A stretch of DNA of 38,851 nt from Rhodospirillales bacterium (lineage in GTDB: Bacteria; Pseudomonadota; Alphaproteobacteria; Azospirillales; Azospirillaceae). Location of the stretch: NCBI GenBank assembly GCA_947457845.1, contig CANGXM010000005.1, positions 1 to 38,851 on the forward strand, given 5' to 3'. Below the pieces are notes generated by a model. The model made no database searches and was not told the origin of the DNA. It was given only the letters and a program-made list of their open reading frames with translations. The translations under genes were made by a program, and so were the position numbers. Numbering within the stretch: the first letter of the stretch is position 1; every line of letters begins with the position of its first letter. Of the stretch, positions 1,601 through 32,680 are shown piece after piece.

Positions 1601-1778
1601 GGAGACCCGTCCGGATGGAAGGCGTGGGCGCCGCTGGCGTGCGCGGGCCCGATCCCCATATCACCCGGGGGGCGCCGGGCGCAAACCCACGGACGGCGAC
1701 GGTTGTGTCGGGCCCGCCGTCCCCCTTATCCTCGTCGAGGAAGGCGGGGAACGCCGCTGGACCGGGAGGGAACGGGAC

Positions 1779-2837
1779 ATGGACGGTGTGGTTCGGACGG
1801 ACGGGGCGCCGGTCACGGTGCGGCCGCAGCCGGCGGTCGACCCGTTCGGTCGCACGATCACCTACCTGCGGGTCTCGGTGACCGACCGCTGCGACTTCCG
1901 CTGCGTCTACTGCATGGCGGAGGACATGACCTTCCTCCCCAAGCGCGACCTGCTGACGCTGGAGGAACTCGACCGGGTCTGCTCCACCTTCGTGGCGCTC
2001 GGCGTGCGCAAGCTGCGGCTGACCGGCGGCGAGCCGCTGGTCCGGCGCAACGTGATGTCGCTCGTCCGTTCGTTGTCCCGGCACCTGAAGTCGGGCGCGC
2101 TGAAGGAACTGACGCTGACCACCAACGGCAGCCAGCTGGCGAAGCATGCGGCGGAACTGGCCGAGTGCGGCGTGCGGCGGATCAACGTCTCGCTCGACAC
2201 GCTGGACCCCGCCCGCTTCACCGAACTGACCCGCTGGGGAAAGCTCGATCAGGTGCTCGACGGGATCGCCGCGGCGAAGGCGGCGGGCATCCACGTCAAG
2301 ATCAACGCCGTGGCGCTCAAGGGCGTGAACGACGCGGAGTTCGACGACCTCATCCGCTGGTGCGGGACCCATGGCCACGACCTCTGCCTGATCGAGGTCA
2401 TGCCGATGGGCGACATCGACGGCGAGGGCGGCGCGCGCACCCGGGCCGACCAGTACCTGCCCCTCTCGCTGGCCCGCGCCGATCTCGCGCGACGCTGGAC
2501 GCTGGAGGACACGGATTACAGGACGGGCGGGCCGGCGCGTTACGTGAACGTGCGCGAGGCCGGCATCCGGCTCGGTTTCATCACGCCGCTGACCCACAAT
2601 TTCTGCGAAAGCTGCAACCGCGTGCGCCTGACCTGCACCGGCCAGCTCTTCATGTGCCTCGGGCAGGAGGACGCGGCCGACCTGCGGGCGCCGATGCGGG
2701 CGAGCGCCGACGACGCGCCGCTGGTCGACGCGATCCGCGAGGCCATCACCCGAAAGCCCAAGGGGCACGACTTCGTGATCGACCGGCGGCGCTCCGGTCC
2801 GGCCGTCCCGCGCCACATGAGCGTGACCGGCGGCTGA
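1779..2837 (+). CDS. moaA: GTP 3',8-cyclase MoaA (molybdopterin biosynthesis)
   Basis: This is a radical SAM enzyme that converts GTP to 3',8-cyclo-GTP, the first step of molybdenum cofactor synthesis. The 352-residue product has the N-terminal radical SAM cluster motif Cys38-x3-Cys42-x2-Cys45 in the context [10 protein letters not shown], the SAM-binding stretch LTGGEPL, and the C-terminal second [4Fe-4S] motif Cys276-x2-Cys279-x13-Cys293. It ends in the Gly-Gly pair that MoaA needs for catalysis. Length is normal for the family. The frame is open far upstream (to 162), but the ATG at 1779 has a good ribosome binding site (GGGAGGG at 1764-1770), and the upstream part is low-complexity shadow of the opposite-strand gene. 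No other moa gene is in the window. NAD kinase follows 65 bp later. Confidence 0.96.
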
Positions 2838-2890
2838 CGCGTCCGGGTGACGACGTCGATCGGCCTTCCGGATCGACCGGAACCGTGCTG

Positions 2891-2896
2891 TAGAGT
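2891..2896 (+). promoter_or_regulatory. -10-like box in front of nadK
   Basis: TAGAGT lies 7 nt before the nadK ATG at 2903. If it is a real -10 element, transcription would start at or next to the A of the ATG, giving a leaderless or nearly leaderless mRNA. No Shine-Dalgarno sequence is visible before this ATG, which fits. I see no good -35 hexamer at the expected distance, so support is weak. Confidence 0.3.
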
Positions 2897-2902
2897 ACGG
2901 CC

Positions 2903-3700
2903 ATGTCCGATCGTCGCCCGCCCGGCCCGCTCCCAGCCTCCCTCCGGCTGCATGTCACCGCAGCCGCCACGCCGGAGGCCACGGACGCGCACCGCGATCT
3001 CGTGCGCCGGTACGGCCAGGCCCCGATCGAGACGGCCGACGTGGTCGTGGCGCTCGGGGGCGACGGCTTCCTGATAGAGACCCTGCACGAGACGCTGCAC
3101 CGGCACGTCCCGATCTTCGGGATGAACCGGGGATCGGTCGGCTTCCTGCTGAACGAATGGTCGCCCGAAGGGCTCGGCGAACGGCTGGCACGGGCCCAGC
3201 GCGTCACGCTCAACCCGCTGCGAATGGTGGCGACGCGTGAAAGCGGGGAACGGGTGGAGGGGCTCGCCCTCAACGAGGTCTCGCTCCTGCGGGAGACGCG
3301 CCAGTCGGCCAAGCTTCGCATCCTCGTGGATGGCATCGTCCGGCTGCCCGAACTGATCTGCGACGGCGCCCTCGTCGCCACGCCCGCGGGCAGCACGGCC
3401 TACAACCTGTCCGCGCATGGACCGATCGTCCCGTTGGGGGCGAACGTCCTGGCGCTCACCCCGATCAGCGCGTTCCGGCCGCGCCGCTGGCGGGGCGCGC
3501 TCGTGCCGCGGACGGCGGAGATCGTGTTCGAGGTTCTGGAGGCGGCGAAGCGGCCGGTCAGCGCCGTGGCCGACTTCACCGAGGTCCGGGACGCCGTGCG
3601 GGTGACCGTCCGCGAGGAGACCGCGATCTCGCTGGATCTCCTGTTCGACCCCGACCAGAACCTCGACGAGCGGATCCTCAAGGAACAGTTCGCAAGCTGA
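2903..3700 (+). CDS. nadK: NAD kinase
   Basis: The enzyme phosphorylates NAD at the 2'-hydroxyl of the adenosine ribose to make NADP in the cytoplasm. The 265-residue product carries the family hallmarks: the GGDG motif at residues 52-55 ([14 protein letters not shown]), the Asn124-Glu125 pair in [10 protein letters not shown], and the conserved segment [19 protein letters not shown] at about 153-171. The length matches the compact alphaproteobacterial form (about 255-270 residues). The ATG at 2903 is the only sensible start; no Shine-Dalgarno sequence is visible upstream, but a -10-like TAGAGT at 2891-2896 suggests a very short leader. The gene lies 65 bp after moaA on the same strand, so it may also be read from the moaA transcript. 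No functional link to the ABC importer that follows is evident. Confidence 0.95.
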
Positions 3701-8692: not shown

Positions 8693-9649
8693 ATGACGGA
8701 AACGATGCCCCGGGTGGAGCTGGTGCCGCCCGACATCGCCGCCTACCGCAACGGCAACGTCGGGGTCGACTGGGTCTGGCGGTGGACCGCCGCGGCGCCG
8801 GGCCCCCACGTGGCCGTCGTCGCCGCCGTCCACGGCAACGAACTCTGCGGGCCGATCGTCGTCGACCGGCTGCATCGGCTCGGAATCCGTCCGGCGCGGG
8901 GCACCCTTACGCTCGCGCTCGCCAACGCCGCCGCCTATCTCAGCTTCGACGCGCAGCGGCCGACGGCATCGCGCTTCCTCGACGAGGACATGAACCGCGT
9001 CTGGGACCCCGCCGTCCTCGACGGGCCGCGTCGCACCGCCGAACGCGTCCGCGCGCGGGCGCTCCGGCCCCTGCTCGCCGAGGCCGACGCGCTGCTCGAC
9101 CTCCACTCGATGCTCCACGAGGGCGATCCCCTCATCCTCAGCGGGCCGACGGCACGGGGAGCGGCCCTCGCCCGCGCGATCGGCCTTCCGGCCTGGGTCG
9201 TCGCCGACGCCGGGCATGCGGCGGGGCTCCGCCTGATCGACATGCCGCCCTTCGGCGATCCCGATGCGGCGCAGACGGCCATCCTGGTCGAGTGCGGGCA
9301 GCACTGGCGCCGCGCGACGGCGGCGGTGGCGCTCGAGGCGACGATCCGGTTCCTCGCCCACTTCGGCATCGTGGATTCCGCGGTCTTCGCCGCCCACCGG
9401 CCGGCGCCCGGGCCGCAGGCCGCCGGCGGCTTCGTCCGCGTGACCGACGTGGTGACCGTTCGGACCGACCGGTTCCGCTTCGCGCCCGACGCGCACGGCA
9501 TGTCCGTCGTTCCCCGCGCGGGGACGGTGATCGCCTGGGACGGGGACGACGCGGTCCGGACGCCCTACGACGACTGCGTGCTCGTCATGCCCTCCCGCCG
9601 GGCGCGGGCGGGACAGACCGCGGTCCGGCTGGGGCGGCGGGAACCATGA
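8693..9649 (+). CDS. Succinylglutamate desuccinylase/aspartoacylase-family zinc deacylase
   Basis: The 318-residue product belongs to the AstE/AspA branch of M14-like zinc enzymes, which cleave N-acyl amino acids or similar amides. The Zn-binding motif His47-x2-Glu50 is visible in VAAVHGNELCGP, the third ligand is His138 in DALLDLHSM, and the conserved DEDMNRVW segment at about 97-104 lies between them. Length is typical. A GTG at 8648 would add 15 residues, but the ATG at 8693 has a strong purine-rich site (AGGGGGG, 8681-8687) and gives a natural N-terminus. The stop overlaps the start of the AbrB-like gene (ATGA), so the two proteins are probably made together. The substrate cannot be told from sequence. 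Confidence 0.85.
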   Translation: MTETMPRVELVPPDIAAYRNGNVGVDWVWRWTAAAPGPHVAVVAAVHGNELCGPIVVDRLHRLGIRPARGTLTLALANAAAYLSFDAQRPTASRFLDEDMNRVWDPAVLDGPRRTAERVRARALRPLLAEADALLDLHSMLHEGDPLILSGPTARGAALARAIGLPAWVVADAGHAAGLRLIDMPPFGDPDAAQTAILVECGQHWRRATAAVALEATIRFLAHFGIVDSAVFAAHRPAPGPQAAGGFVRVTDVVTVRTDRFRFAPDAHGMSVVPRAGTVIAWDGDDAVRTPYDDCVLVMPSRRARAGQTAVRLGRREP

Positions 9650-13691: not shown

Positions 13692-14807
13692 ATGACGACC
13701 GCCGTTAGAACTTCCCCCATGTCCAGCAGCCATGCCCGCACCGACGCGCCGATCCTCGTGACCGGCGGCGCCGGCTTCATCGGTTCCTGCTACGTCCGGC
13801 GCGCGATCGCCTCCGGACGTCGCGTGGTCAACCTCGACGCCCTCACCTACGCCGGGACGCTGACCCGGCTGGCGTCGGTGGCCGACGACCCGCTGCACCG
13901 GTTCGTGCACGGCGACGTCCGCGACTCCGCCCTCCTCGCCCGGCTGTTCGACGAGGAGCGGCCCGACGCCGTCGTCCACTTCGCGGCCGAGAGCCATGTG
14001 GACCGCTCGATCAACGACGCCCGTCCCTTCATCGACACCAACGTCGGCGGGACGACGGCGCTGCTCGGCGCGGCGCTGGCGCATTGGGACGGGCTGTCGG
14101 GGGCCGAGCGCGAGGCGTTCCGGTTCCTCCACATCTCCACCGACGAGGTGTTCGGGACGCTGGGCCCCACCGGCGCCTTCACCGAGACGACGCCCTACAA
14201 TCCACGGTCGCCCTACGCGGCGTCGAAGGCCGCCTCGGACCATCTGGTCCGATCCTTCGGGTTGACCTACGGCCTGCCGGTTCTGATCACGAACTGCTCG
14301 AACAACTACGGGCCGTTCCAGTTTCCCGAGAAGCTGATCCCGCTCACCTTCGTCCGCGCGATCGGCGGCCGCCCCCTGCCCGTCTACGGCGACGGCTCGA
14401 ACGTGCGCGACTGGATCCACGTCGAGGACAGCTGCGCCGCCTTCGAGGGCGTGCTGTCCAGGGGCGTCCCGGGCGAGAGCTACTGCATCGGCGCCGACGC
14501 CGAGCGCACCAACCTCGACACGGTCCGCGACATCTGTCGCCTGCTCGACGGGCTGACCCCCAAGGCCGACGGCGGGCGCCACGAGGACCAGATCACCTTC
14601 GTCACCGACCGGCCGGGACACGACTTCCGCTACGCGACCGATTGCGCCAAGGCGCGGCGGACGCTTGGCTGGTCCGGCGGACGGCCGTTCGCCGAGGGGC
14701 TGGAGCAGACGGTCCGCTGGTATCTGGAGAACCGCGCCTGGTGGGAGCCGATCCTCGCCGGCGTCTATGACGGGGAACGTCTCGGCCTGCGCGGCCGGGC
14801 GGCCTGA
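13692..14807 (+). CDS. rfbB: dTDP-glucose 4,6-dehydratase
   Basis: This extended SDR converts dTDP-glucose to dTDP-4-keto-6-deoxyglucose, the branch point for dTDP-deoxysugars and amino sugars. The 371-residue product has the NAD-binding GGAGFIGS at residues 25-32, the catalytic Thr150-Asp151-Glu152 triad in HISTDEVFG (the Asp-Glu pair separates dehydratases from epimerases), and Tyr175-x3-Lys179 in SPYAASKAA. NCSNNYGPFQFPEKLIP and DGSNVRDWIHVED are also classic RmlB stretches. A second in-frame ATG at 13719 would give 362 residues; 13692 has GGAG about 12 nt upstream. No rfbA, rfbC or rfbD is in the window. It heads a four-gene operon that ends with a sugar aminotransferase, so its product is probably aminated rather than turned into rhamnose. 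Confidence 0.95.
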   Translation: MTTAVRTSPMSSSHARTDAPILVTGGAGFIGSCYVRRAIASGRRVVNLDALTYAGTLTRLASVADDPLHRFVHGDVRDSALLARLFDEERPDAVVHFAAESHVDRSINDARPFIDTNVGGTTALLGAALAHWDGLSGAEREAFRFLHISTDEVFGTLGPTGAFTETTPYNPRSPYAASKAASDHLVRSFGLTYGLPVLITNCSNNYGPFQFPEKLIPLTFVRAIGGRPLPVYGDGSNVRDWIHVEDSCAAFEGVLSRGVPGESYCIGADAERTNLDTVRDICRLLDGLTPKADGGRHEDQITFVTDRPGHDFRYATDCAKARRTLGWSGGRPFAEGLEQTVRWYLENRAWWEPILAGVYDGERLGLRGRAA

Positions 14808-14841
14808 GCCCAGGGCGCGATCGATCCGGCGGGAGGTGGTG

Positions 14842-17136
14842 GTGTCGACAGTCGTTTCGCGGACGGGGGAGGCCACCGACGCGCGCCCCGCCGTTCTCGC
14901 CCTCGTCTTCGGCCTTTTTTTCGCATCGGGCTTCAGCGCGCTCGTCTACCAGACGGCTTGGCAGCGCATGCTGGGCCTGTTCGGCGGCGCGGATACGGTT
15001 GCCGCGTCGCTGGTCGTCGGCGCCTTCCTCCTCGGCCTGGGGCTCGGCAGCCTGTGGGCGAGCGTCTTCGCCGACCGGATCGGGCGGCGGACGGCCTACG
15101 TCCTGTTCGGCCTCGTGGAGATCGGGATCGGCCTGTTCGGCGCGGTCAGTTCCTGGATCTTCTACGACGTGCTGTTCGGCCGCTTCGTCGGCTTGGCGCA
15201 ATCCCCTGCCATCGTGTTCGCCGCGGCCTTCGCCGGCCTGCTCTGGCCGACGATCCTGATGGGGCTGTCGCTGCCGCTGCTGTCGCGGGCGATCGTGCGC
15301 GACATCGCCACGTCGTCGCGGACGATCGGCTGGCTCTACGCGGTCAACACCTTCGGCGCGGCGCTCGGCACCTTCGCCGCCGGCTGGTGGCTCATCGGCA
15401 CCTTCGGCTACGAGCCGGTGATCTGGATGGCGGCGGCGATCAACGTGGCTGTCGGGGTGGGCGCCCTCCTCGTGGCGATGGGCCAGACGGAGGCGGGCGA
15501 CGGCGCCGCGACCGGAGCGGCGGCCCACCGCCTGCGCGACACGCCCGCGCCGGTCTGGCGCTGGTGCGTGCTGGTGTTCGTGTCCGGCTTCCTCATCATC
15601 TCGCTCCAGATCGTCTGGTACCGGCTCCTGGGCACGATGATGCAGTCGTCGGCCTACAGCTTCTCGCTGGTGCTGGGCCTGTTCCTCGTCGGCGACGCGG
15701 TCGGTCTCGTCTGGGGCGGGGCGCTGGCCCGTCGGCTCCCCGATCCGCGCCGATTCTTCCTGTGGATGCAGGGCGCGACCATCCTCTACTCGATCCTGGT
15801 GATCTGGGCCGTCTGGCTGGCCTTCGGCGCCGATGCCGTTTCTGGCCAGTTCGTCGACCGGTTCGTGGTCGTCGCGGACTGGCGCCCGCTCCTGATGATC
15901 GTGTCGCTGACGGCGCTCGTGGTGCTGCCGGGCAGCCTGCTGATCGGCATGTCGTTCCCGCTGGTGCAGCAGGCGATCCAGACGGACGCGAACCTCGTCG
16001 GACAGCGGGTGGGGCTGATCCAGCTCGCCAACATCGGGGGCAACAGCCTCGGCGGGATCGTCACGGGGCTGGTGCTGATCCACCTGTTCGGCACCGACGG
16101 GACGATCCGGCTTCTTCTGCTGGCCGGGCTCGGCTTCATGGTGCTGCTGTGGGCGACCAGCATCGCCGACCGGCGGACGGGCAACGCCGTCCTCATGGCC
16201 GGACTCGTGGCGCTCCTCGTCGTCTTCCCCGCCGGGGACGCGTTCTGGTCGCGCCTGCACGGCGCCCGGGCGCAGGAGAGGGCCATCGTCGGCGAGGACA
16301 GGACCGGCGTGGTCGTGCTCCGCCACGACGGCGCCGGCAACGGCCGCGTCTTCATCGGCGGCCACGCGCAGAGCTGCATCCCCTTCTGCACGGTGCATGG
16401 CTTCCTCGGGATGATCGGCCCGCTCGCCCATCCCGCGCCGACCGACGTGCTCGTGATCGGCGTGGGGAGCGGCGGGACGCCGTTCGGCGCCGGCGTCCGG
16501 CCGGAGACGTGGACCGTGCTCGCGATCGAGCTGGTCAGCCCGGTCTACGACGTGCTGCGCCGCTATCTGGCCGAAGAGGCGGGAAAGCCCGGGCGGTCGG
16601 CCGAGGCGCGGGCGGGCATCGGGCGGATGTTCTCCGATCCGCGCTTCAATCTCGTGGTCGGCGACGGCCGCCACCTGCTCTACACCGACGACCGCAAGTG
16701 GGACGTCATCGAGGCCGATGCGATCCTGCCGCAGACGGCGCACTCGGGCGCCCTCTACTCGATCGAATACTACGAACAGCTCCGGAGCAAGCTGAAGCCC
16801 GGCGGCATCGCCGTGCAGTGGGCGCCGACGGAGCGGTCGATCGCCACCTTCCTGCAGGTGTTCCCCTACGTCACGATGGTCCATCCGGCCATCATCGGCA
16901 GCGACGCCCCGATCGAGATCACACGGGAGAAGCTTCTCGCCGCTGTGGACCGGCCCGACGTGGTCGAGTATGTCCGGTCGGCGGGCATGGACGTCGCCGA
17001 CCTCCGGTCGTGGTTCGACACCAAGCGCCCGGAGGTCTGGCGCCCGGGCGACCCGCGGCGGGGAATAGACGTGAACGCCGACCTGTTCCCCAAGGACGAG
17101 TACTACCTCAACAACGCGCAGATCTTCCCCCGATGA
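14842..17136 (+). CDS. Fused membrane transporter-like / spermidine-synthase-like protein
   Basis: The 764-residue product has two parts. Residues about 15-475 are strongly hydrophobic with around a dozen membrane segments (starting VLALVFGLFFASGFSALVYQTAWQRML, the signature of MFS-like/spermidine-synthase fusions). Residues about 485-764 form a SpeE-like Rossmann domain with the SAM-binding glycine loop VIGVGSGG near 535-542, an AIEL acidic loop, and the block VIEADAILP at about 622-630. In true aminopropyltransferases this block reads DSTDP; here it is D626-A-I-L629-P, so the second, amine-binding Asp is Leu. Three GTG codons follow each other at 14836-14844. The last (14842) is placed best after GGGAGG (14831-14836). 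The stop overlaps the next start (ATGA). Its role in a sugar operon is unknown. Confidence 0.82.
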   Translation: MSTVVSRTGEATDARPAVLALVFGLFFASGFSALVYQTAWQRMLGLFGGADTVAASLVVGAFLLGLGLGSLWASVFADRIGRRTAYVLFGLVEIGIGLFGAVSSWIFYDVLFGRFVGLAQSPAIVFAAAFAGLLWPTILMGLSLPLLSRAIVRDIATSSRTIGWLYAVNTFGAALGTFAAGWWLIGTFGYEPVIWMAAAINVAVGVGALLVAMGQTEAGDGAATGAAAHRLRDTPAPVWRWCVLVFVSGFLIISLQIVWYRLLGTMMQSSAYSFSLVLGLFLVGDAVGLVWGGALARRLPDPRRFFLWMQGATILYSILVIWAVWLAFGADAVSGQFVDRFVVVADWRPLLMIVSLTALVVLPGSLLIGMSFPLVQQAIQTDANLVGQRVGLIQLANIGGNSLGGIVTGLVLIHLFGTDGTIRLLLLAGLGFMVLLWATSIADRRTGNAVLMAGLVALLVVFPAGDAFWSRLHGARAQERAIVGEDRTGVVVLRHDGAGNGRVFIGGHAQSCIPFCTVHGFLGMIGPLAHPAPTDVLVIGVGSGGTPFGAGVRPETWTVLAIELVSPVYDVLRRYLAEEAGKPGRSAEARAGIGRMFSDPRFNLVVGDGRHLLYTDDRKWDVIEADAILPQTAHSGALYSIEYYEQLRSKLKPGGIAVQWAPTERSIATFLQVFPYVTMVHPAIIGSDAPIEITREKLLAAVDRPDVVEYVRSAGMDVADLRSWFDTKRPEVWRPGDPRRGIDVNADLFPKDEYYLNNAQIFPR

Positions 17137-18161
17137 CGCCCCCTCCGCCCGACGACCGCACGGTACCCGCCCGCCCGGATCCCGCCTGGTGGTCGGGGCG
17201 CCGCGTCCTGGTGACGGGGGGCCTCGGCTTCATCGGCTCCACGCTGGCGCATCGCCTGGTCGAGCACGGGGCCGACGTCGTGCTGGTCGACAGCCTCGTG
17301 CCGGAGTACGGCGGCAATCCGGCCAACGTCGCCGACATCACCGACCGGGTCCGCATCAACATCTCCGACATCCGCGATCCCCACAGCTTCCGGCACCTCG
17401 TGCAGGACCGGGAGGTCATCTTCAACCTCGCGGGCCAGACGTCCCACCTCGACAGCATGCGGGACCCCTTCACGGACCTCGAGATCAACTGCACCGCGCA
17501 GCTCCGTCTGCTCGAGGTCTGCCGCGCGGCGGCCCCGCAGGTGAAGATCGTCTACGCCTCGACGCGCCAGATCTACGGCCGCCCGGACTATCTGCCGGTC
17601 GACGAGCGCCATCTGCTGCGCCCGACGGATGTCAACGGCATCAACAAGATGGCCGGCGAGTGGTACCACATCCTGTACAACAACGTTTACGGGCTGCGGG
17701 CCTGCGCGTTGCGGCTGACGAACACCTACGGGCCGCGCATGCGGATCAAGGACGCGCGCCAGACCTTCCTGGGCGTCTGGGTCCGGCTCGCGGTCGAGGG
17801 ACGGCCGTTCGAGGTCTGGGGCGGCGAGCAGAAGCGCGACTTCACCTACGGCGAGGATTGCGCGGACGCGCTGATGCTGGCCGCCGAGCGGCCGGAGACG
17901 GACGGGCGGATCTTCAACCTCGGCGGCGACGGGATCGTGTCGCTGACGGAACTGGCCGAGCTGCTGATCGCCGCCAACGGCGGCGGGCGGTTCGAGGTCC
18001 ACGAGTTCCCGGCCGAGCGCAAGCGCATCGACATCGGCGATTACTACGCCGACGATGCCCTCTTCCGCGAGACGGTGGGCTGGCGCCCGGCCACCCCGCT
18101 CGCGGCCGGCCTCGCCGCCACGCTCGCCTACTACCGCGAAACCCTTCCCCGTTATCTCTGA
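17133..18161 (+). CDS. Extended SDR, NAD-dependent sugar epimerase/dehydratase-like, catalytic Tyr replaced
   Basis: The 342-residue product is an extended SDR with the NAD-binding TGGLGFIG at residues 28-35 and the nucleotide-sugar segments expected of the family (ASTRQIYGRPDYLPVDE, LRLTNTYGPRMRIKDARQTF, GEQKRDFTYGEDCADAL). At the position of the catalytic Tyr-x3-Lys, however, the sequence is Asn168-Gly-Ile-Asn-Lys172: the Lys is there and the Tyr is Asn. I recall this Val-Asn-Gly-Ile-Asn-Lys form from a recurring subgroup of these proteins, so it is probably a subfamily trait rather than a mutation. Classical hydride-transfer chemistry with a Tyr base is thus doubtful. The gene overlaps its upstream neighbour (ATGA) and is 14 bp from the aminotransferase. 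Confidence 0.87.
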   Translation: MTPPPPDDRTVPARPDPAWWSGRRVLVTGGLGFIGSTLAHRLVEHGADVVLVDSLVPEYGGNPANVADITDRVRINISDIRDPHSFRHLVQDREVIFNLAGQTSHLDSMRDPFTDLEINCTAQLRLLEVCRAAAPQVKIVYASTRQIYGRPDYLPVDERHLLRPTDVNGINKMAGEWYHILYNNVYGLRACALRLTNTYGPRMRIKDARQTFLGVWVRLAVEGRPFEVWGGEQKRDFTYGEDCADALMLAAERPETDGRIFNLGGDGIVSLTELAELLIAANGGGRFEVHEFPAERKRIDIGDYYADDALFRETVGWRPATPLAAGLAATLAYYRETLPRYL

Positions 18162-18175
18162 CGGATCCGCCCGCC

Positions 18176-19318
18176 ATGACCGACGTCGCGCCCATCCCGC
18201 AGACCGATCCCCGCGCCGGCTATCTCGCCGCGCGAACGGACATCGACGCCGCGGTCGCCCGCGTGCTTGAGAGCGGCTGGTACATTCTCGGCAAGGAGGT
18301 CGCGGCCTTCGAGGCCGAGTTCGCCGCCTTCGTCGGGCCCGGGCAGCACGGGATCGGCGTCGCCAACGGGACCGACGCGCTGGTGCTGGCCCTGCGCGCG
18401 CTCGGCGTTGGCCCGGGCGACGGCGTGGTGACGGTGGCGCACACGGCGGTCGCCACGGTCGCCGCGGTCGAGCTGGTCGGCGCGACGGCGATCCTGGCCG
18501 ACATCGACCGCGGGTACACGCTCGACCCCGTGTCCTTCGCCGCCGCGCTGGAACGGCCGCCGGTGCCGGTCAAGGCGGTGATCCCGGTGCATCTCTACGG
18601 CCAACCGGCCGACATGGGACCGATCCTGGAGATCGCGCGGGCGCGGGGGATCGCGGTGATCGAAGACTGCTCCCAGGCGCACGGCGCGGTCTGGAACGGC
18701 AAGGCGGTCGGCAACTGGGGCGACGTCGCCGCCTACAGCCTCTATCCGACCAAGAACCTCGGTGCCCTGGGGGACGGCGGCATCGTGACGACGCCCGATG
18801 CGGCGCTGGCCGACCGGCTGCGCATGCTTCGGGAGTACGGCTGGAAGTCGCGCTACGTCAGCGACATCCCCGGGCAGAACACCCGCCTGGACGAACTCCA
18901 GGCCGCGATCTTGCGCGTGAAGCTGGCGCGCCTTCCCGCGGAGAACGCGCGGCGCCGGGCCGTCGCGGCGGCCTACGACGCGGGCCTCGCCGACGCGGCG
19001 TTGGAGCGGCCCTGGCGCCGGCCGGACACCACCCATGTCTTCCATCAGTACGTCCTGCGCCACCCGGACCGCGAGGGCCTGAAGGCTCGGCTGCGGGACC
19101 GGGGCGTGATGACAAACGTCCACTATCCGGTGCCGGTCCACCTCCAGCCCGCATACCGGGATCGCGTGGCCCTCGCGCCGGGCGGCCTGCCGAACACCGA
19201 GGCGGCCGCGCTCGCGATCCTCAGCCTGCCGATGTTCGCGCAGCTGTCGGATGCGGACGTGGGGCGGGTGGTCGAGGCGGTGCGGGCCAGCGCCGACCTG
19301 GCCCTGGCAGCGGAGTGA
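18176..19318 (+). CDS. DegT/DnrJ/EryC1/StrS-family sugar aminotransferase
   Basis: This PLP enzyme transfers an amino group from glutamate to a keto-sugar nucleotide. The 380-residue product has the PLP-lysine Lys193 in the context SLYPTKNLGALGDGG, the PLP-ring Asp164 in VIEDCSQAHGA, and the N-terminal GVANGTDALVLALRAL phosphate-binding stretch. The NLGALGDGG form is the one found in sugar 3-aminotransferases (FdtB, QdtB, DesV type) and differs from that of 4-aminotransferases such as ArnB. With the dehydratase gene in the same operon, a dTDP-3-amino-3,6-dideoxyhexose is the likely product. That would also need a 3,4-ketoisomerase (FdtA/QdtA), which is not in the window. The ATG at 18176 is 14 bp after the SDR stop. 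The gene converges on the small flippase gene. Confidence 0.92.
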   Translation: MTDVAPIPQTDPRAGYLAARTDIDAAVARVLESGWYILGKEVAAFEAEFAAFVGPGQHGIGVANGTDALVLALRALGVGPGDGVVTVAHTAVATVAAVELVGATAILADIDRGYTLDPVSFAAALERPPVPVKAVIPVHLYGQPADMGPILEIARARGIAVIEDCSQAHGAVWNGKAVGNWGDVAAYSLYPTKNLGALGDGGIVTTPDAALADRLRMLREYGWKSRYVSDIPGQNTRLDELQAAILRVKLARLPAENARRRAVAAAYDAGLADAALERPWRRPDTTHVFHQYVLRHPDREGLKARLRDRGVMTNVHYPVPVHLQPAYRDRVALAPGGLPNTEAAALAILSLPMFAQLSDADVGRVVEAVRASADLALAAE

Positions 19319-25857: not shown

Positions 25858-25968
25858 ATGCTGCGCCGTCGACGCTGCGTCGGGGGCCGGGACGCCGGCG
25901 ATGCGCTGTTGCTCCGGATGGTGGCCGCCTTCCTCGCACGGTTCGGCCACCCGGACGGGTCGCCATGA
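25858..25968 (+). CDS. Short basic ORF (36 residues) overlapping the glycosyltransferase start
   Basis: An ATG at 25858, preceded by GGGGAGAC (25841-25848), opens a 36-codon frame reading MLRRRRCVGGRDAGDALLLR and ending GHPDGSP. Its stop overlaps the start of the following glycosyltransferase (ATGA). It begins about 27 bases after the predicted transcription start, so it is the first ORF of the mRNA. It is very basic at the N-terminus and has one short hydrophobic stretch (ALLLRMVAAFLARF). It may be a leader peptide that couples translation to the glycosyltransferase, or a small protein in its own right. I recognise no family, and nothing but position and ribosome binding site supports it. 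Confidence 0.4.
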   Translation: MLRRRRCVGGRDAGDALLLRMVAAFLARFGHPDGSP

Positions 25969-26765
25969 CGGACGCCGGCACCGCCGCCGCCGCGACGCCC
26001 GTCAGCGTGGTCACGGTGGTCAGGAACGATCGTGCCGGGTTCCTGGCGACGCGAGCCAGCCTTCGTGCGCAGGGCTTCCGCGGTTTCGAATGGATCGTCG
26101 TGGCCGGGACGTCGTCCGACGGGACCGACGGGGCGATCGCCGACGCGGTAGCGGCCGGCGAGGTCGCGCACCATGTCCGCGGCGTCGACGGCGGTCCCTA
26201 TCGCGGCATGAACCAAGGCGCCGATCTGGCCGCCGGACGGTTCCTCCTCTTCCTCAACGCCGGCGACCGGCTGGCCGACGCCGACGTGCTCGGCCGGGTC
26301 GCGGCCCGCCTCGCGGCCGGGGGCGTCGATCTCCTCTATGGCGATCATGTCGCCGACCGCCACGACGGCTCGGCCCGCCTCGTTCCGGCGCTCTCCCCCG
26401 ATTCGATTGCTAGCCGAATGTTCGCGAGCCACCAGTCCATCCTTTATGCGGTGTGGCTCCTCCGTCGTTTCGGCTTCGATCCGCAGTATGCAGTCGCCGC
26501 CGACTACGTGCTGACGCTACACGCTTTGATGGGGAATATCCGAGTCGTCGGGGTGCCCTATGCCATCAGTCGGGTCGCACCCGCAGGTATCTCCGCCCGG
26601 CAGGCCCTGCGGGGGCGGGTGGAACAGGCCCGTGCAAGACGTCGTATCCTTCGGCACTCCTTGTTTCGGGTCACCTCGATATTCCTTCTGCAGACCGCCG
26701 CCTGGCGGCTGCGCTGCGTCCTGCCCGGCCTATACGAACGGATAAGGCGCCATCGCAGGGTGTAG
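25965..26765 (+). CDS. Family 2 glycosyltransferase (WcaE-like)
   Basis: The 266-residue product has a GT2 fold: PVSVVTVVRNDRAGFLATRASL near the N-terminus, WIVVAGTSSDGTDGAI (the nucleotide-binding Asp), and DGGPYRGMNQGADLAAGRFLLFLNAGDRL at about 76-104. In relatives such as the colanic acid enzyme WcaE this last block holds the metal-binding residues (here Asn-Ala-Gly-Asp). A C-terminal amphipathic/hydrophobic stretch, SLFRVTSIFLLQTAAWRL, suggests membrane association. It would add a sugar to a lipid-linked oligosaccharide in the cytoplasm. The start is coupled to a preceding 36-codon ORF. From about base 26395 the codon usage is noticeably less GC-rich than in the first half, and the following intergenic DNA is AT-rich, which may mark a transfer or recombination joint. 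Confidence 0.85.
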   Translation: MTDAGTAAAATPVSVVTVVRNDRAGFLATRASLRAQGFRGFEWIVVAGTSSDGTDGAIADAVAAGEVAHHVRGVDGGPYRGMNQGADLAAGRFLLFLNAGDRLADADVLGRVAARLAAGGVDLLYGDHVADRHDGSARLVPALSPDSIASRMFASHQSILYAVWLLRRFGFDPQYAVAADYVLTLHALMGNIRVVGVPYAISRVAPAGISARQALRGRVEQARARRRILRHSLFRVTSIFLLQTAAWRLRCVLPGLYERIRRHRRV

Positions 26766-26892
26766 AGATTGCCTTGAGTTTGATGGTTAATGATTTGTTT
26801 ACGGTTACGAGCGGTTGTATTTCAAACTTGTTGGGCCAGGGGAAACAGTATACATCGAAACAGTAACCGTCGCGGTTGCCGGCGGAGAAGGC
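26766..26892 (+). promoter_or_regulatory. AT-rich control region of the XRE regulator gene, with ACGGTTAC/GTAACCGT inverted repeat
   Basis: This 127-bp region is far more AT-rich than its surroundings. ACGGTTAC at 26801-26808 and its exact complement GTAACCGT at 26863-26870 form an inverted repeat 54 bp apart, each arm followed within a few bases by GCGGTTG (26811-26817, 26872-26878). Possible -10 elements include TATACA at 26849-26854, between the arms. The paired sites flanking a promoter suggest an operator, plausibly for autoregulation by the XRE protein encoded next, but this is inference. The ribosome binding site GGAGAAG is at 26884-26890. Confidence 0.45.
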
Positions 26893-27357
26893 ATGAAAGG
26901 TCTATCCATGAAGGCACCTTTAGCGTCCGCCCACACGATCTCGCGGCGCGGTGAAGGCCCGAACCCGATCGACATCCACGTCGGGCAGAAGCTGCGTCTG
27001 CGTCGGACCCTGCTGGGTCTCAGCCAGGAGAAGCTGGGAGAGGCGGTCGGAATCACGTTCCAGCAACTGCAGAAGTATGAACGCGGCGCGAACCGCATCA
27101 GCGCGTCCCGCCTGTTCAACCTCTCGCAGGTTCTCGGCGTGCCGGTGACCTACTTCTTCGAGGACCTGCCGCCTCCCGGAGACACGCTGGATCGGCTGGA
27201 TACGGAGCAGGTCGAGGGCGACGAGATGGACGCGATGGCCCGGCGGGAGACGCTTGAGCTCGTGCGCGCCTATTATCGCATCGTCGACGGCGGTGTCCGC
27301 AAGCGGACATTCGAACTGGTGAAGGCGCTCGGCGGCGACCGGACGGACGCCCTCTGA
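26893..27357 (+). CDS. XRE-family transcriptional regulator (alphaproteobacterial PraR/SinR-like)
   Basis: The 154-residue product has one HTH_3 domain at about residues 27-87: IDIHVGQKLRLRRTLLGLSQEKLGEAVGITFQQLQKYERGANRIS, with the recognition helix in GITFQQLQKYERG. It is followed by the stretch LFNLSQVLGVPVTYFFEDLPPPG. This arrangement is widespread in Alphaproteobacteria; the characterised relative PraR of Rhizobium represses surface-polysaccharide and attachment genes, which would suit the gene neighbourhood. The short helical C-terminus (ELVRAYYRIVDGGVRKRTFELVKAL) may serve dimerisation. The start at 26893 has a good ribosome binding site; the ATG at 26908 is an alternative, and the open frame further upstream lies in AT-rich control DNA. 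It converges on the WaaE-like glycosyltransferase gene, with 7 bp between the stops. Confidence 0.88.
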   Translation: MKGLSMKAPLASAHTISRRGEGPNPIDIHVGQKLRLRRTLLGLSQEKLGEAVGITFQQLQKYERGANRISASRLFNLSQVLGVPVTYFFEDLPPPGDTLDRLDTEQVEGDEMDAMARRETLELVRAYYRIVDGGVRKRTFELVKALGGDRTDAL

Positions 27358-27364
27358 CCCGCAA

Positions 27365-28210
27365 TCAGCGGCGGCGGACCTCCGCGTCCGTCGCGCGCTT
27401 CACGTCGATCATCCAATAGTAGACCGCGCGGGCCATCGCGTAGTGGGCCCCGGCCCGCCCGTCGAGGAAGCCGAGACACCAGGCGTAGCTGTCGAGGAAC
27501 GCGAGAAGGGGGCGAGCGGGCAAGCGGGCGACGATCAGCTTCAGCCGGCGGCGCGGTCCCGTCTCCGCCGCGACGAGATCCGCCATCCGTCCGTCCCCCT
27601 CCATCCGCGCCATCCAGTCCGTATAGCGGTTGTGCCGCGCGATCCAGGCCGAGAAACGGTCGCCGTCGCGATGCTCGATCGGCGGGCGGATCGCCCCGAC
27701 GCGGCCGTCGACCCGCGGCTGATAGTGCCCCTCAACCTCCCACATCGTCGCCACGTCCAGGTCGTCGACCGGCAGGAACCGGCATCGACGACGGTCGAGC
27801 AGCGCGATCTTGCGGTGCCGCCGGCCGAACCGCAGCCGGCGCCCCAGCATCGTCGGCCGGGCGGTGATCCATGCGGCCGCGACGTCGCCCGCCGCCACCG
27901 TCGCGTCCACCGCGTCGACGAAGGCGTCGTCGAGGCGCTCGTCGGCATCGACGAACAGCACCCAGTCGACCGTGAACGGCAGGGTCTCGAGGCACCATTG
28001 TTTCTTCTTGGGATAGGCGCCGTCCCAGCTGAACGGGACGACGGTCGCGCCCATCGCCGCGGCGAGGTCGGGCGTCCCGTCCGTGCTCGCGCTGTCGACG
28101 ACGAAGACCTGGGCGAACCGCCGGCCGACCGACGCGAGGCAGCCGACCACGTTCGCCGCCTCGTCCCGCGTCATGACCACGACGGCCGCGGGGATGGCCC
28201 GACCGGTCAT
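27365..28210 (-). CDS. Family 2 glycosyltransferase, WaaE/KdtX-like
   Basis: The 281-residue product has the compact GT2 organisation of WaaE/KdtX-type lipopolysaccharide core glucosyltransferases: AAVVVMTRDEAANVVGCLASV at about 8-28, VVDSASTDGTPDLAAAMGATVV at 37-58, the typical FSWDGAYPKKKQWCLETLPFTVDWVLFVDADERL block with the metal-binding Asp-Ala-Asp-Glu at 88-91, and a later VEGHYQPRVDGRVGAIRPPIEHRD segment. Two C-terminal hydrophobic stretches (RPLLAFLDSYAWCLGFLDG and YAMARAVYYWMI) suggest membrane attachment. It would extend a lipid-linked glycan in the cytoplasm. Its ATG overlaps the stop of the polymerase-like gene (ATGA), so the two are translationally coupled. A long open frame in another register upstream is only shadow. 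Confidence 0.88.
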   Translation of the reverse strand: MTGRAIPAAVVVMTRDEAANVVGCLASVGRRFAQVFVVDSASTDGTPDLAAAMGATVVPFSWDGAYPKKKQWCLETLPFTVDWVLFVDADERLDDAFVDAVDATVAAGDVAAAWITARPTMLGRRLRFGRRHRKIALLDRRRCRFLPVDDLDVATMWEVEGHYQPRVDGRVGAIRPPIEHRDGDRFSAWIARHNRYTDWMARMEGDGRMADLVAAETGPRRRLKLIVARLPARPLLAFLDSYAWCLGFLDGRAGAHYAMARAVYYWMIDVKRATDAEVRRR

Positions 28211-30252
28211 GCGCCGCTCCGCCCCCGGACCAGCACGATCAGGAGCCCCGCCGCAAAGCCGCCGAGGGCCGCGACGGCCAGCACGACGACCGGATCGGGG
28301 TCGTCCGGCCGCACCGAGGCGACGGGGCCGTGGACGAAGACGATGGCGTGGGACCGGTCGGCCGCGAGAAGGAGGCGTCGTCTTTGCTGATCCTCCAGGA
28401 GCGACGCGAGGGCGAGCCGGCGGTCGGTGGGACCGGACCCGTCCGCCAGCAGGCTGCCGAGGTGCGCGATCAGCACCTCCGCCTCGTCCTGGTCCGATCG
28501 TCGCAACCGTGCGTCCGCGCTTGCCACGGAGAGCGCGACCACCATCTCCGCGACCCGCGGATCGGCATGCCGGTAGGTGATGCGCCGGAGCCCCGGCTGC
28601 GCGGTGGGCTCGATCCGGAAGCGGGTCCGCAGATGGGCCGCGAGACGATCGGTGTCCGGCCGGTCGGCGACCGGCCGGCCGGCGAGGGCGGCGACCAGTG
28701 CGACCGTCGCGGTGCCCCTCGCCGCCCCGTCGGCGAGAACGGTGCCCAGCAGCCCCGGCCGCGCGGCGAGGTCGTCGGCGAGCAGGCCGCCCGCGAGTAG
28801 TTCCGCTGCGAGGACGAAGGGCACGACCCCCGTGGCCGGATCGTCGGAGGGGCGCCCGCACGCGTCACCGGGCGTCGCCACCACCGCGGCCGGCCCGACG
28901 ATCGCCACCGCGGTGTGCAGCGGTTCGGTCGACCGGAGCCAGACCACGCCGACGACCAGCGCCAGTGCGGTCGCGGCGAGGGGCGGCACCGCAGGCGCAA
29001 GGAAGGCGACGACTGAACGCGAACCGGACAAAAAGGTGGTCATGGACGACCGATATACACTTTTTGATTGTCTTTCCAGAGCCATCGCACGCCCCGTCGT
29101 CAGGAGGGCGAGGACGAGACCGAAGGTGAGGAACTTGTGGCTGGTGTGGACGGTCAGCCCGATCGCCAGCGTGGGCAGCGCGGCGAGGACCGGCGCGGGC
29201 ACACGCGAGAGACCCTCCTGCACGACCGGTGCGGCGAGCGCGATCACGAAGACCGCACCGGCCGCCGCACCGGTCATCCCCGCCTTGACGATCAGGTGGA
29301 CCGGCTGCCCGTGGGCGTAGCGGACCGGATCGCCCCCTGTCGCGGGGTTGACGAAGAGCGCGCCCCACCCCTGGCCGAAGGGCAGGCCGAGCGGACCGTC
29401 GGCGGCGGCCGCGATCGCCGCTGCGAGTTCCGCGGGACGGGCGTTGAGCCCGACCGACGCCGTCTTTCGAAGAAGGCCGTCGAACGCCCCGAGCGGACCG
29501 TCCGCCAGGCCGGCGACCGCGGCGGCCGAGAGGGCGACGATCGCGAGCACGAGCCGCCCGCACGCCATTGGGCCTTGGGCCGAAGCCGTCGCCACGAGGA
29601 CGACGGCGAGTACGCCCGCCCGGTGACCGGCGGCGAGCAGGACGCCGAGGATGCCGACCGCCGCCATCGCCGCGGCGACGACGGCGGGACCGTTGGCCCG
29701 CAGCGCGACCGCCGCGGCGAGGGCGGCTGCGAAGGTCACCGAGGGATCGTTGAGCAGCAGGTCGCCCGCCCACGGCGCATCCGGCATCCCCTCCACCGGC
29801 CAGGGCGCGCGAAACCCCGTCGCGACCCGCAGCGCGATGACCGCACCCGCAACGGCGAGGCCCGCCGCGAGCCAGCCGACCATCCGGCCCGCCTCCGCCG
29901 CGGGCGGGAGGATCAGGGCGAGGGCGAGAAAGCCCAAGGGAACGAGATCGCGGACCATGTCCCCGGGCGGGGTCCCGGTGCCGGCCGCGAGGATGAGCGG
30001 CGGCCAGAGGAGAAGATGGAACCCCACGACGGCCACGCGCGGAACCTGATCGAACGGGACACGCCGACCAAGGAGAAGGAGGCCGATGGCCCGGCGCCAG
30101 TCGACCGCCGCTGCCAGGACGAGGCCGACCAGCAGTTCGACCGGACCGACGGCGGGCGGCGCCGTCTCCCCCGCCACGCCGTGGACGGCACAGGCGGCGA
30201 ACAGGGCCACCGGTCGGAGGCAGGCGAGGTCTGGCGGTCGGCGGCGATCCAT
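28207..30252 (-). CDS. O-antigen polymerase/ligase-like protein fused to a Wzz-like chain-length domain
   Basis: This single 681-codon frame encodes two units. Residues 1-403 are strongly hydrophobic with about ten or more membrane helices. They include a large-loop segment, PFGQGWGALFVNPATGGDPVRYAHGQPVHLIVKAGMTG, whose His and Gly/Gln-rich core is typical of Wzy/WaaL-type O-antigen polymerases and ligases. At Met404 (ATG at 29043) a second unit begins. It has one membrane helix (about 414-435), roughly 215 residues of Arg/Asp/Leu-rich soluble sequence with helical periodicity, and a second helix at the extreme C-terminus, which is the topology of Wzz/Wzc chain-length regulators. The joint (29041-29085) is the most AT-rich part of the gene. 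No stop separates the units, and no ribosome binding site precedes Met404. The assignment of both halves rests on topology and weak motifs. Confidence 0.62.
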   Translation of the reverse strand: MDRRRPPDLACLRPVALFAACAVHGVAGETAPPAVGPVELLVGLVLAAAVDWRRAIGLLLLGRRVPFDQVPRVAVVGFHLLLWPPLILAAGTGTPPGDMVRDLVPLGFLALALILPPAAEAGRMVGWLAAGLAVAGAVIALRVATGFRAPWPVEGMPDAPWAGDLLLNDPSVTFAAALAAAVALRANGPAVVAAAMAAVGILGVLLAAGHRAGVLAVVLVATASAQGPMACGRLVLAIVALSAAAVAGLADGPLGAFDGLLRKTASVGLNARPAELAAAIAAAADGPLGLPFGQGWGALFVNPATGGDPVRYAHGQPVHLIVKAGMTGAAAGAVFVIALAAPVVQEGLSRVPAPVLAALPTLAIGLTVHTSHKFLTFGLVLALLTTGRAMALERQSKSVYRSSMTTFLSGSRSVVAFLAPAVPPLAATALALVVGVVWLRSTEPLHTAVAIVGPAAVVATPGDACGRPSDDPATGVVPFVLAAELLAGGLLADDLAARPGLLGTVLADGAARGTATVALVAALAGRPVADRPDTDRLAAHLRTRFRIEPTAQPGLRRITYRHADPRVAEMVVALSVASADARLRRSDQDEAEVLIAHLGSLLADGSGPTDRRLALASLLEDQQRRRLLLAADRSHAIVFVHGPVASVRPDDPDPVVVLAVAALGGFAAGLLIVLVRGRSGA

Positions 30253-30299
30253 CCGGCGACGGTGCCATCGCCGTCGCCGTCACGCCACCTCAGGGTGCA

Positions 30300-30539
30300 T
30301 CAGGGCAGGAAACTTCTCGGCCGACGCGACGATCGCGACCCGGCCCATTCGATCATCGCGGCGACGAGCCGCTCGAGATGGGGCCTCAGGAGGCTTGCCC
30401 CCTCGTTCCGGAAACCCCAGGGCGGTCCGGCGTCCATGTCGAGGTCCCGTGCGATGCCGAGTTGCACAGCGTGGATCCCCGACGCCGGATCGGCGTGCCG
30501 GCGACCGGTGAAGCCGTTCGGCTTACCACGCGCTCGCCC
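30300..30539 (-). pseudogene. Probable 3' remnant of an N-formylglutamate-amidohydrolase-like gene
   Basis: On the minus strand a frame ending at a TGA at 30300-30302 encodes about 75 residues reading GKPNGFTGRRHADPASGIHA and continuing VQLGIARDLDMD, then a helical tail (LLRPHLERLVAAMIEWAG). It resembles the C-terminal block of N-formylglutamate amidohydrolases, in which a Tyr-Gly-rich segment is followed by HALQIEI and LYMDE. Here HAVQLGI and LDMD stand in the same order. No start codon, catalytic N-terminal part or coherent upstream reading frame exists between 30540 and the ArsR gene, so the gene is 5'-truncated or broken. The rest of the 445-bp gap (30253-30697) holds nothing else I can recognise. 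Confidence 0.35.
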
Positions 30540-30697
30540 GCGTCCGGCGGGCGTCCGTCCCGGTCGATCGCCTCCCCCCCGCGAGCGTCGTCGTCGGCCG
30601 CGGGGTCCGTGACGGGTCTGCGACGTCGATCCTTAGCGGTCAACAGATCTTCTTTGCACTGCAGCAGGACGCGGGCGAGATCGCCGGATGGGCGACG

Positions 30698-31048
30698 TCA
30701 GGCCTCGTCGTCCTCCTCCTCGGCGACGTGATCCGCCATGTCCGAGAGGACGCGGCGGATGTGCTCGTCGGTGATGAGGTAGTAGACGCGGTTCCCCCGC
30801 CGCTCCGCCTGGATGAGCCGGCCCGCGCGCAGCAGGCGCAGATGATGGCTCACCAGCGACGGCGAGAGCCCGAGTTCGGACGCCATCTCCCCGACCGAGA
30901 CCGGCTCGCTCAGGCAGGACAGGATGATCTTCAGCCGCGAGGGATCGCTCATCAGCCGGAACATATCCGCGAGTTCGCTGGTCTTGTCGTCCGACAGGCG
31001 AAGGCGACCGGTGCGGTGGGAGACTGGCTTCAGCATCGGGGCGTCCAT
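30698..31048 (-). CDS. ArsR/SmtB-family metal-sensing repressor
   Basis: The 116-residue product is a winged-helix repressor with the ArsR core ELADMFRLMSDPSRLKIILSCLSEPVSVGEMASELGLSPSLVSHHLRLLRAGRLI and the wing RRGNRVYYLI. Near the C-terminus it has Asp94-x-His96-x10-His107-x2-Glu110, exactly the spacing of the alpha-5 metal site of SmtB (Asp, His, His, Glu), which binds zinc. The only cysteine is Cys45, so the arsenic-type alpha-3 site is absent. It should therefore leave its operator when zinc (or cobalt/nickel) rises. The ATG at 31048 is preferred: a -10-like TATAGT (31079-31084 on this strand) and a 16-bp palindrome (31062-31077) lie just upstream, which rules out the GTG at 31090. No metal transporter is adjacent; the photolyase diverges from it. 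Confidence 0.88.
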   Translation of the reverse strand: MDAPMLKPVSHRTGRLRLSDDKTSELADMFRLMSDPSRLKIILSCLSEPVSVGEMASELGLSPSLVSHHLRLLRAGRLIQAERRGNRVYYLITDEHIRRVLSDMADHVAEEEDDEA

Positions 31049-31061
31049 GTTCGGCCGCGCG

Positions 31062-31084
31062 GCAGGGCCGGCCCTGCGACTATA
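31062..31084 (-). promoter_or_regulatory. Promoter and 16-bp palindromic candidate operator of the ArsR-type gene
   Basis: GCAGGGCCGGCCCTGC at 31062-31077 is a perfect 16-bp palindrome. It sits immediately downstream of a minus-strand -10-like TATAGT (31084-31079), i.e. over the expected transcription start of the repressor gene and 14 bp before its ATG. That is the usual place for an autoregulatory ArsR-type operator. It is more GC-rich than known SmtB/CzrA operators, so binding by this protein is a hypothesis. Confidence 0.45.
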
Positions 31085-31141
31085 GACCACCCTCCGCCCC
31101 TCCGCACGCGGGCTTCAAGGCCCGGACGCGGCGCCTACCTC

Positions 31142-31155
31142 GTTCGCATGCGAAC
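31142..31155 (+). promoter_or_regulatory. 14-bp palindrome centred on the photolyase start codon
   Basis: GTTCGCATGCGAAC is a perfect palindrome whose centre is the ATG (31148-31150) of the photolyase gene. An operator overlapping the start codon, or an mRNA hairpin masking it, would give tight control. The arms GTTC/GAAC recall DNA-damage operators, but the alphaproteobacterial LexA box is a direct repeat (GTTC-N7-GTTC), so this does not match it. Confidence 0.35.
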
Positions 31156-32680
31156 AGACCCCGCCTCGCCTCTCCAGATCGTCTGGTTCAAGCGCGACCT
31201 GCGGGTGGCGGACCATGCCCCCCTGACGGAGGCCGCGCGTCGCGGGCCGGTGCTCCCGCTCTATGTGGTGGAACCGGACCTCTGGTCGGAGCCCGACGCC
31301 TCCGGGCGCCAGTGGGCCTTCGTTCGCGAGGCGCTCGAGGCGCTGCGGGCCGATCTCGCGGCGCTCGGCCGGCCCCTCGTGTTGCGGACGGGCGAGGTGG
31401 TCCGCGTCCTCGAGGGGCTCGGCCCCTTCGCGGCGCTGTGGAGCCACGAGGAGACCGGGAACGCCCGGACCTACCGGCGCGATATCGCCGTCGGCGCCTG
31501 GTGCCGGGCGCGCGGGATCGTCTGGACCGAACTGCCGCAGTTCGGCGTCGTCCGCCGCCTGCGCTCGCGCGACGGATGGGCCCGCCGATGGGAGACGCGC
31601 ATGGCGTCCGCCCCCGTCCCGCCGCCGGACGCCCTGCCCCCGCTGACCGGCGTCGACCCGGGCGCGATCCCGGACGTGCCGGTCCCCGGCCTCGCCGCCG
31701 ATCCCTGCCCCGGGCGACAGCCCGGCGGCCGGGCGGCCGGCCTCGCGACGCTCGAAAGCTTCCTCGGCGAGCGGGGTCGGACATACCACCGCGACCTGTC
31801 GAGCCCCGTGACTGCGTTCCGCGGCTGCTCCCGCCTGTCGCCGCACCTCGCCCACGGGACGCTGTCGATGCGGGAGATCGTGCAGGCGGCCCGCGCGGAC
31901 CTGCCCGGCGCCGATCCGGTGCGCCGGCGCGCGATCGGCGCGTTCGTCGAACGGCTCCACTGGCACTGCCACTTCATCCAGAAGCTGGAGAGCCAGCCCG
32001 ACCTCGAGGTCCGGAACGCCCACCCGGCCTACGACGGCCTTCGCGACGGTCCGGCCGACGCGGCGACGCTGGCGGCGTGGGCACGGGGGGAGACCGGCTG
32101 GCCGCTCGTCGACGCCTGCATGCGCGCGCTGATCGCCACCGGCTGGATCAACTTCCGCATGCGGGCCATGCTGGTCGCCGTCGCCAGCTACCATCTCTGG
32201 CTCCCCTGGCGGGACACGGGCCTGCATCTCGCCCGGCTGTTCACCGACTACGAGCCCGGCATCCACTGGAACCAGATGCAGATGCAGAGCGGCACGACCG
32301 GCATCAACACCATCCGGATCTACAACCCGGTCAAGCAGTCGCAGGACCACGATCCGGAAGGCCGCTTCATCCGCCGCTGGATCCCGGAACTGGCCCGGGT
32401 TCCCGACCACGCGATCCACACGCCCTGGACGCTGGACCGTACCGGGCAGGCGGCGGCGGGCTGCCGCATCGGCACCGACTATCCGGCGCCCGTCGTCGAC
32501 CATCTGGAGGCCGCGCGCGCGGCGCGGGACCGGGTCTGGGCGGTGCGGCGCGGCGGCGCCTTCACCGCTGAGGCCGACCGGATCCAGGAGACCCACGGCA
32601 GCCGGCGCAGCGGGCTGCCCCCCTCCAACCCGACCCGCCGACGCAAGGCCGATCCGGGCCAGACCGTGCTGGACCTCTGA
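31148..32680 (+). CDS. FAD-binding photolyase/cryptochrome
   Basis: The 510-residue product begins with a photolyase alpha/beta antenna-binding domain ([21 protein letters not shown] and [18 protein letters not shown]) and continues with the FAD-binding domain: [54 protein letters not shown], and [20 protein letters not shown] followed by [18 protein letters not shown] and RRWIPEL. These place it firmly in the photolyase/cryptochrome superfamily. The YEPGIHW...[15 protein letters not shown] block differs from E. coli-type class I CPD photolyases, so the repair specificity (CPD, 6-4 or none) is open. The ATG at 31148 lies at the centre of a palindrome. A 59-codon gene starts within its stop codon (TGATG). 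Divergent from it is a SmtB-type repressor. Confidence 0.9.

Follow-up and report, generated by a model that had tools for sequence, protein, structure and literature searches.

One open reading frame with two predicted folds

The window, that is, the whole stretch of 38,851 nucleotides that was analysed, carries on its minus strand an uninterrupted open reading frame at 28207–30252, which bears out the frame of the single polypeptide that a preliminary description of the DNA had proposed there. Its 681 codons contain no internal stop, the plus strand does contain stops across the same interval, and a search of the genome found the frame once. On either side of the joint between its two halves, the ORF frame has the best codon-usage log-odds of the three frames, although a few windows fall below 0. 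The features of the locus are the following.

28207–30252, minus strand: fusion open reading frame, 681 aa, ATG at 30252, stop at 28207–28209
29044–30252, minus strand: polymerase/ligase-like half (residues 1–403), predicted polytopic GT-C fold of the Wzy/WaaL type
28207–29043, minus strand: co-polymerase half (residues 404–681 and the stop), in the predicted structure a mixed domain between two terminal helices
29023–29100, minus strand: AT-rich linker (about residues 385–410), net positive by reading, with no coding signal, matching the gene junction of relatives
29041–29043, minus strand: ATG, putative start of a free co-polymerase by internal initiation, overlapping a TGA of another frame (ATGA)
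27365–28210, minus strand: downstream glycosyltransferase of family 2 (PF00535), also present in the loci of relatives
26893–27357, plus strand: XRE-type HTH regulator (PF01381), convergent, a conserved neighbour in relatives
25965–26765, plus strand: GT2, the second family 2 glycosyltransferase of the locus (PF00535), from its Pfam match and the loci of relatives

The stop of the fusion frame and the start of the downstream glycosyltransferase share 4 bases (ATGA). Elsewhere in the window, two adjacent 15-nt repeats that are 80% alike (26842–26871) form a candidate operator in the AT-rich stretch that precedes XRE, and two NAD-dependent epimerase/dehydratases with a DegT-type aminotransferase, which are sugar-nucleotide genes, lie at 13692–19315, over 6 kb away from the fusion.

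The division at residue 403/404 that had been described earlier is correct: the polymerase-like family HMM covers residues 11–396 of the frame and the co-polymerase HMM covers 405–678, both resting on alignments that included the window's own sequences. At threshold, Pfam and NCBIfam offer no family for either half or for the whole protein. Because co-polymerase rows in a mixed alignment were 18–25% identical to the window and seemed to be placed against the wrong half, the two halves were modelled apart.

For residues 1–403, an AlphaFold2 model made with relatives as the alignment (pLDDT 84.3, pTM 0.85) predicts a WaaL-like polytopic GT-C fold. The best Foldseek match of this model is WaaL (7tpg, E 1.5e-4), and in VIA the same protein aligns over 324 residues with a Z of 17.4 and an rmsd of 4.9; transferases from the FtsW and RodA complexes come next (Z 8.4–11.9). 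The fold fits both a polymerase and a ligase and does not tell them apart. Sequence identity to 32 aligned relatives is 29–36%; these are 32 of the 35 named polymerase relatives, the remainder having untrimmed starts. In common with the WaaL/Wzy superfamily (7tpg, PF04932), the half has the predicted fold and keeps family-invariant H, R and K sites, namely R101, H210, R211, H314 and K323, which are alignment-based positions and candidate counterparts of the catalytic periplasmic His/Arg residues of WaaL. In contrast to that superfamily, it gives no match to PF04932 (Wzy_C), even at E <= 10, and its C-terminal extension is a second protein. Among 19 polymerase-like members of the alignment, the window row included, PF04932 matches two others at E <= 1 (best 1.1e-5), and a sequence-profile search of the PDB returned no match for this half.

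For residues 404–681, the AlphaFold2 model (pLDDT 82.3, pTM 0.74) resembles polysaccharide co-polymerases. Foldseek finds Wzc, WzzE, KpsE and FepE, with E down to 4.3e-9, and VIA places co-polymerases at Z of about 9 to 15, with KpsE best (14.8) and WzzE at 11.2. The predicted terminal helices (8–38 and 251–277 of the 278-residue half) enclose the PCP domain, would insert into the membrane and are accompanied by no cytoplasmic kinase, which is the PCP-1 layout. Thus, the half shares with class 1 Wzz proteins (PF02706; WzzE 8p3p, FepE 3b8n), KpsE and periplasmic Wzc the terminal helices, an alpha/beta domain with long helices and the absence of a kinase domain, whereas it differs from class 1 Wzz in bearing a polymerase on its N terminus, in having 20 of 40 near-invariant sites changed and in giving no PF02706 (Wzz) match at E <= 10. 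Its 278 residues compare with 301–335 aa in relatives, whose starts were chosen by a script. The Pfam search of this half gave sub-threshold matches only (Adeno_E3, E 0.062; GNVR, E 0.58), and the PDB sequence-profile search gave only a chain-length determinant at E 0.16 and a ribosome recycling factor at E 0.23. PF02706 does match 18 of the 20 co-polymerase alignment members at E <= 1 (best 2.1e-5), the window half not being among them. The separate co-polymerase alignment holds 28 of 31 named relatives; the others had untrimmed starts.

In effect, the nature that had been assigned to both halves is upheld by the predicted structures and by the families of their relatives, while the direct Pfam searches, for which PF04932 and PF02706 had been named, found neither in the window protein.

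Relatives of the locus and the joint

Of 82 genomes searched within the family, one of which is the query genome, 68 gave a match. By a count from these matches, both halves occur in 66 relatives and the co-polymerase alone in one (G085). The named relatives belong chiefly to Azospirillum, Skermanella, Niveispirillum, Oleisolibacter and Aerophototrophica. A first contig scan gave no close relative of the full protein; 35 relatives were found for an alignment, which omits loci L041, L048 and L049. From the matches, 65 loci were fetched, some genomes being included twice under two numbers, and 10 of these hold only one half. In the 55 loci holding both, the halves are always on the same strand and always in two ORFs, never in one, which confirms the split versions that the preliminary description had suggested looking for. 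Some relatives carry the halves on separate contigs or at a great distance from each other (for instance, G011, G015, G020, G071, G076 and G087).

The polymerase and co-polymerase genes are direct neighbours in 11 different genomes; elsewhere they are mostly 1.2–1.5 kb apart and once 4.0 kb, the space being occupied by a GT4-type glycosyltransferase in the one locus checked (L033). Both genes, the glycosyltransferase, the XRE gene and GT2 are all present in 30 of 35 named loci, and gene order agrees in the six relatives compared, with gaps in the gene calls. Since the window has the same neighbours, its locus is orthologous to that of the relatives. An intact second fusion was considered in G013 and G100, where a frame of 749 or 746 aa is apparent, and was rejected because one TGA separates the halves. 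Two further observations concern individual loci: in G003 (L048) the polymerase-like match falls in two pieces in different frames, and L107 encodes at 1240–3423 (minus strand) a 727-aa Wzy_C protein with its match at 486–641 and no Pfam match at E <= 0.01 in the first ~480 residues.

The joint is as AT-rich as had been described. Among 350 60-nt windows along the ORF, with a mean GC of 0.746, the minimum of 0.43 falls here (centres 29050–29056). Only three places in the window have a 60-nt GC of 0.50 or less, the joint included, the longest of them being the spacer ahead of the HTH gene (centres 26760–26850). The codon-usage log-odds of the three frames are −13.4, −23.2 and −4.5 at centre 29063 and −11.8, −24.3 and −9.1 at centre 29027, so that none of them reads as coding.

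The location of this minimum corresponds to that of the gene junction in relatives with adjacent genes. From the conserved HTS motif of the polymerase to the AT minimum there are 59 nt in the window, against 58 to 73 nt in 8 of the 11 loci whose genes are adjacent (3, 6 and 139 nt in the remaining ones), and in these 11 loci the first polymerase stop comes 81 to 126 nt after the motif. Between the motif and the conserved start of the co-polymerase domain lie 231 nt in the window and 285–380 nt in the 11 loci, which makes the stretch across the joint 54–61 nt shorter than in eight of them and shorter still in comparison with the other three. In all likelihood, the joint is thus the former gene junction, minus its stop and somewhat shortened. 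Around it, 8 of 26 codons are one substitution away from a stop, and in L039 and L092 the two genes share a frame with exactly one TGA between them (8740–8742 and 2315–2317, respectively); taken together, these observations imply that fusion requires one small step. Read-through of the single TGA in L039 and L092 could itself yield a natural, low-level fusion.

With respect to signals in the nucleic acid, the joint has no promoter-like site, and one weak terminator-like site lies at it among three in 26600–31200, where 1.3 are expected; neither kind of signal was adopted for the joint. RNA folding gives 60-nt dG values of −10 to −14 at centres 29026–29062 against a mean of −24.7, which places the joint among the least structured stretches of the ORF. 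An operator that the joint might share with the spacer preceding XRE was also sought, and no common site stood out in 24 upstream regions. A few 8-mers of the joint recur, the commonest in 9 and 6 of these regions as raw counts.

Divergence of the locus and the published Wzz–Wzy complex

Both halves of the frame are strongly diverged. In the polymerase half, 19 of 71 near-invariant sites are changed, as compared with at most 5 in any relative, and in the co-polymerase half 20 of 39, as compared with at most 6. End branches are correspondingly long, at 3.54 and 4.09 for the two halves against maxima of 0.82 and 1.18 in other rows. The adjacent glycosyltransferase (8 of 95 changed; relatives at most 6) and the XRE gene (4 of 92; relatives at most 5) are not markedly decayed. 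GT2 has a raised count too, with 10 of 48 sites changed and a maximum of 4 in relatives, which means that the polymerase half does not stand alone in its divergence. The changes also differ in kind between the halves. Near-invariant R/K/H/D/E/N sites of the polymerase half are retained at 17 of 18 positions, against 36 of 55 for other sites (Fisher p 0.016), whereas no such preference is seen in the co-polymerase half (6 of 10 against 14 of 30; p 0.72). This one modest test suggests that the catalytic framework of the polymerase half is conserved and that the co-polymerase half is relaxed.

The locus is eroding in its gene content too, with part of it lost in the query genus. The sister species G001 lacks the fusion and the adjacent glycosyltransferase, both genome-wide and at the XRE site, where its XRE gene, 78% identical to that of the window, stands directly beside ArsR; no GT2 was seen beside XRE at that site. 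When L113 9340–10356 (G001) is compared with window 26893–31090, the ArsR orientation is opposite relative to the window. The SLBB/Wza-like exporter of the relatives' locus, searched with one query (L033), has no match in the query genome at E <= 1e-3 and was not found in G001, and the same query matches six of six control relatives. The GT4 gene of relatives was not found in these two genomes either, a result given no weight because the search had no positive control. Elsewhere in the query genome, PF02706 and PF04932 each give two other matches over the cut-off.

The closest functional parallel is the WzyE–WzzE pair of the enterobacterial common antigen system, which consists of the same two kinds of protein. 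There, WzzE and WzyE form a complex of about 8:1, with one polymerase within an octameric ring, and a Wzz:Wzy ratio of 9.6 +/- 1.8 was obtained by blot (PMC10030265). In that system the two are separate proteins, while here they form one chain. The tagged C terminus of WzyE was located at the cytoplasmic face in the centre of the ring (PMC10030265), a placement compatible with a connection to the N terminus of Wzz, so that a link from the polymerase to that terminus on the cytoplasmic side is topologically possible. The preliminary description had also suggested that a covalent polymerase-regulator would fix the ratio of the two proteins. Against the published ratio of about 8:1 (PMC10030265), a fixed 1:1 ratio would be odd rather than useful, and this suggestion gained no support. 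Eight polymerases in each ring would hardly fit; either there is no normal ring, or free co-polymerase is also made, or the gene is being lost.

Origins of the fused frame and what it would mean

The explanation with somewhat better than an even chance of being correct is that two neighbouring genes of an Azospirillaceae exopolysaccharide-type locus, one WaaL/Wzy-like and one Wzz-like, have genuinely fused in frame, specifically in this lineage and probably recently. Its recent date is probable because the joint resembles an old intergenic gap and relatives encode the halves apart. As for its origin, the loss of a stop codon that had been proposed agrees with the spacer-like joint and the separate genes, although a short deletion or a sequencing indel fits too. 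The AT-rich spacer would have lost its stop by a point change or short deletion, and the product would be a single inner-membrane protein. Its probable order is a polytopic transferase, a C-terminal tail that is probably cytoplasmic, the positive linker and a periplasmic co-polymerase domain with a membrane helix on either side. The transferase half would still join lipid-linked glycan units at the periplasmic face. The co-polymerase half, with half of its conserved sites changed, may serve as a tether or a weak length regulator instead of forming a normal ring.

Several points count against this explanation. The basis is one draft genome in 375 contigs, the other-frame TGA that overlaps the ATG of the second half looks like the junction expected of coupled genes, both halves are exceptionally diverged, as in a decaying gene, neither reaches any Pfam family, and the known Wzz:Wzy stoichiometry is about 8:1. 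The first two of these leave room for a sequencing or assembly indel, that is, by two overlapping, coupled genes whose frames are merged by a miscounted base near the joint. This explanation is unlikely. The separate genes of relatives and the short homopolymers at the joint (GGGG, AAAAA) favour it, as does the occurrence of the same ATGA overlap between the fusion stop and the next gene's start; nevertheless, ATG followed by A is common, so that such an overlap is weak evidence. In addition, the frame and coding signal are consistent on either side of the joint as sequenced, and, given the stop in the other frame, the indel would have to fall within only ~57 nt. The divergence, in turn, is what would be expected of a decaying relic, where fusion would mark a stage in the loss of an exopolysaccharide-type locus that has ceased to work in the genus. 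This has a considerable probability, short of an even chance, and is compatible with the favoured fusion. It draws on the lost genes of G001, the missing exporter, the long end branches and many changed sites of both halves and GT2, and the other polymerase-like and Wzz-like genes of the query genome. By contrast, the preferential retention of polar near-invariant sites in the polymerase half and the adjacent glycosyltransferase and XRE genes without marked decay speak against such a relic, as do 681 codons that remain open with ORF-frame codon usage, although stops arise slowly in a GC-rich genome and an open frame alone is thus weak evidence.

Two further readings concern how the product might work. 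A working single chain, with the polymerase tethered to its regulator, either in an assembly other than 8:1 or as a mixture of fused regulator chains and free ones initiated inside the former intergenic region, is rather improbable. Also improbable is a dual output, in which a low level of the long chain accompanies free co-polymerase started at the joint, so that a ring of free subunits surrounds one tethered polymerase. The retained ATG at 29043 and the little-structured RNA of the joint would suit such initiation, and known rings have about one polymerase per eight Wzz (PMC10030265). However, no Shine-Dalgarno-like sequence is seen before this ATG, low RNA structure follows from low GC by itself, and many conserved sites of the co-polymerase half are altered. 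On balance, the preferred reading is that the transferase is active and its regulator weakened while the locus erodes; plain decay follows closely and overlaps with it.

No natural Wzy–Wzz fusion was recognised in the literature by title, abstract opening or exact phrase, a coverage outside which most subscription papers fall. The frame brings together a known pair of proteins, and its importance is unproven. If it is a relic, it is a record of a polysaccharide locus decaying through read-through of neighbouring genes, which would be ordinary. The contact and stoichiometry of Wzy and Wzz are hard to study because the complex consists of separate membrane proteins. A real and active fusion would provide a naturally tethered Wzy–Wzz and would show whether a 1:1 linkage permits length control. 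A 1:1 fusion that works would be notable, given that the published complex has about eight Wzz to one Wzy (PMC10030265).
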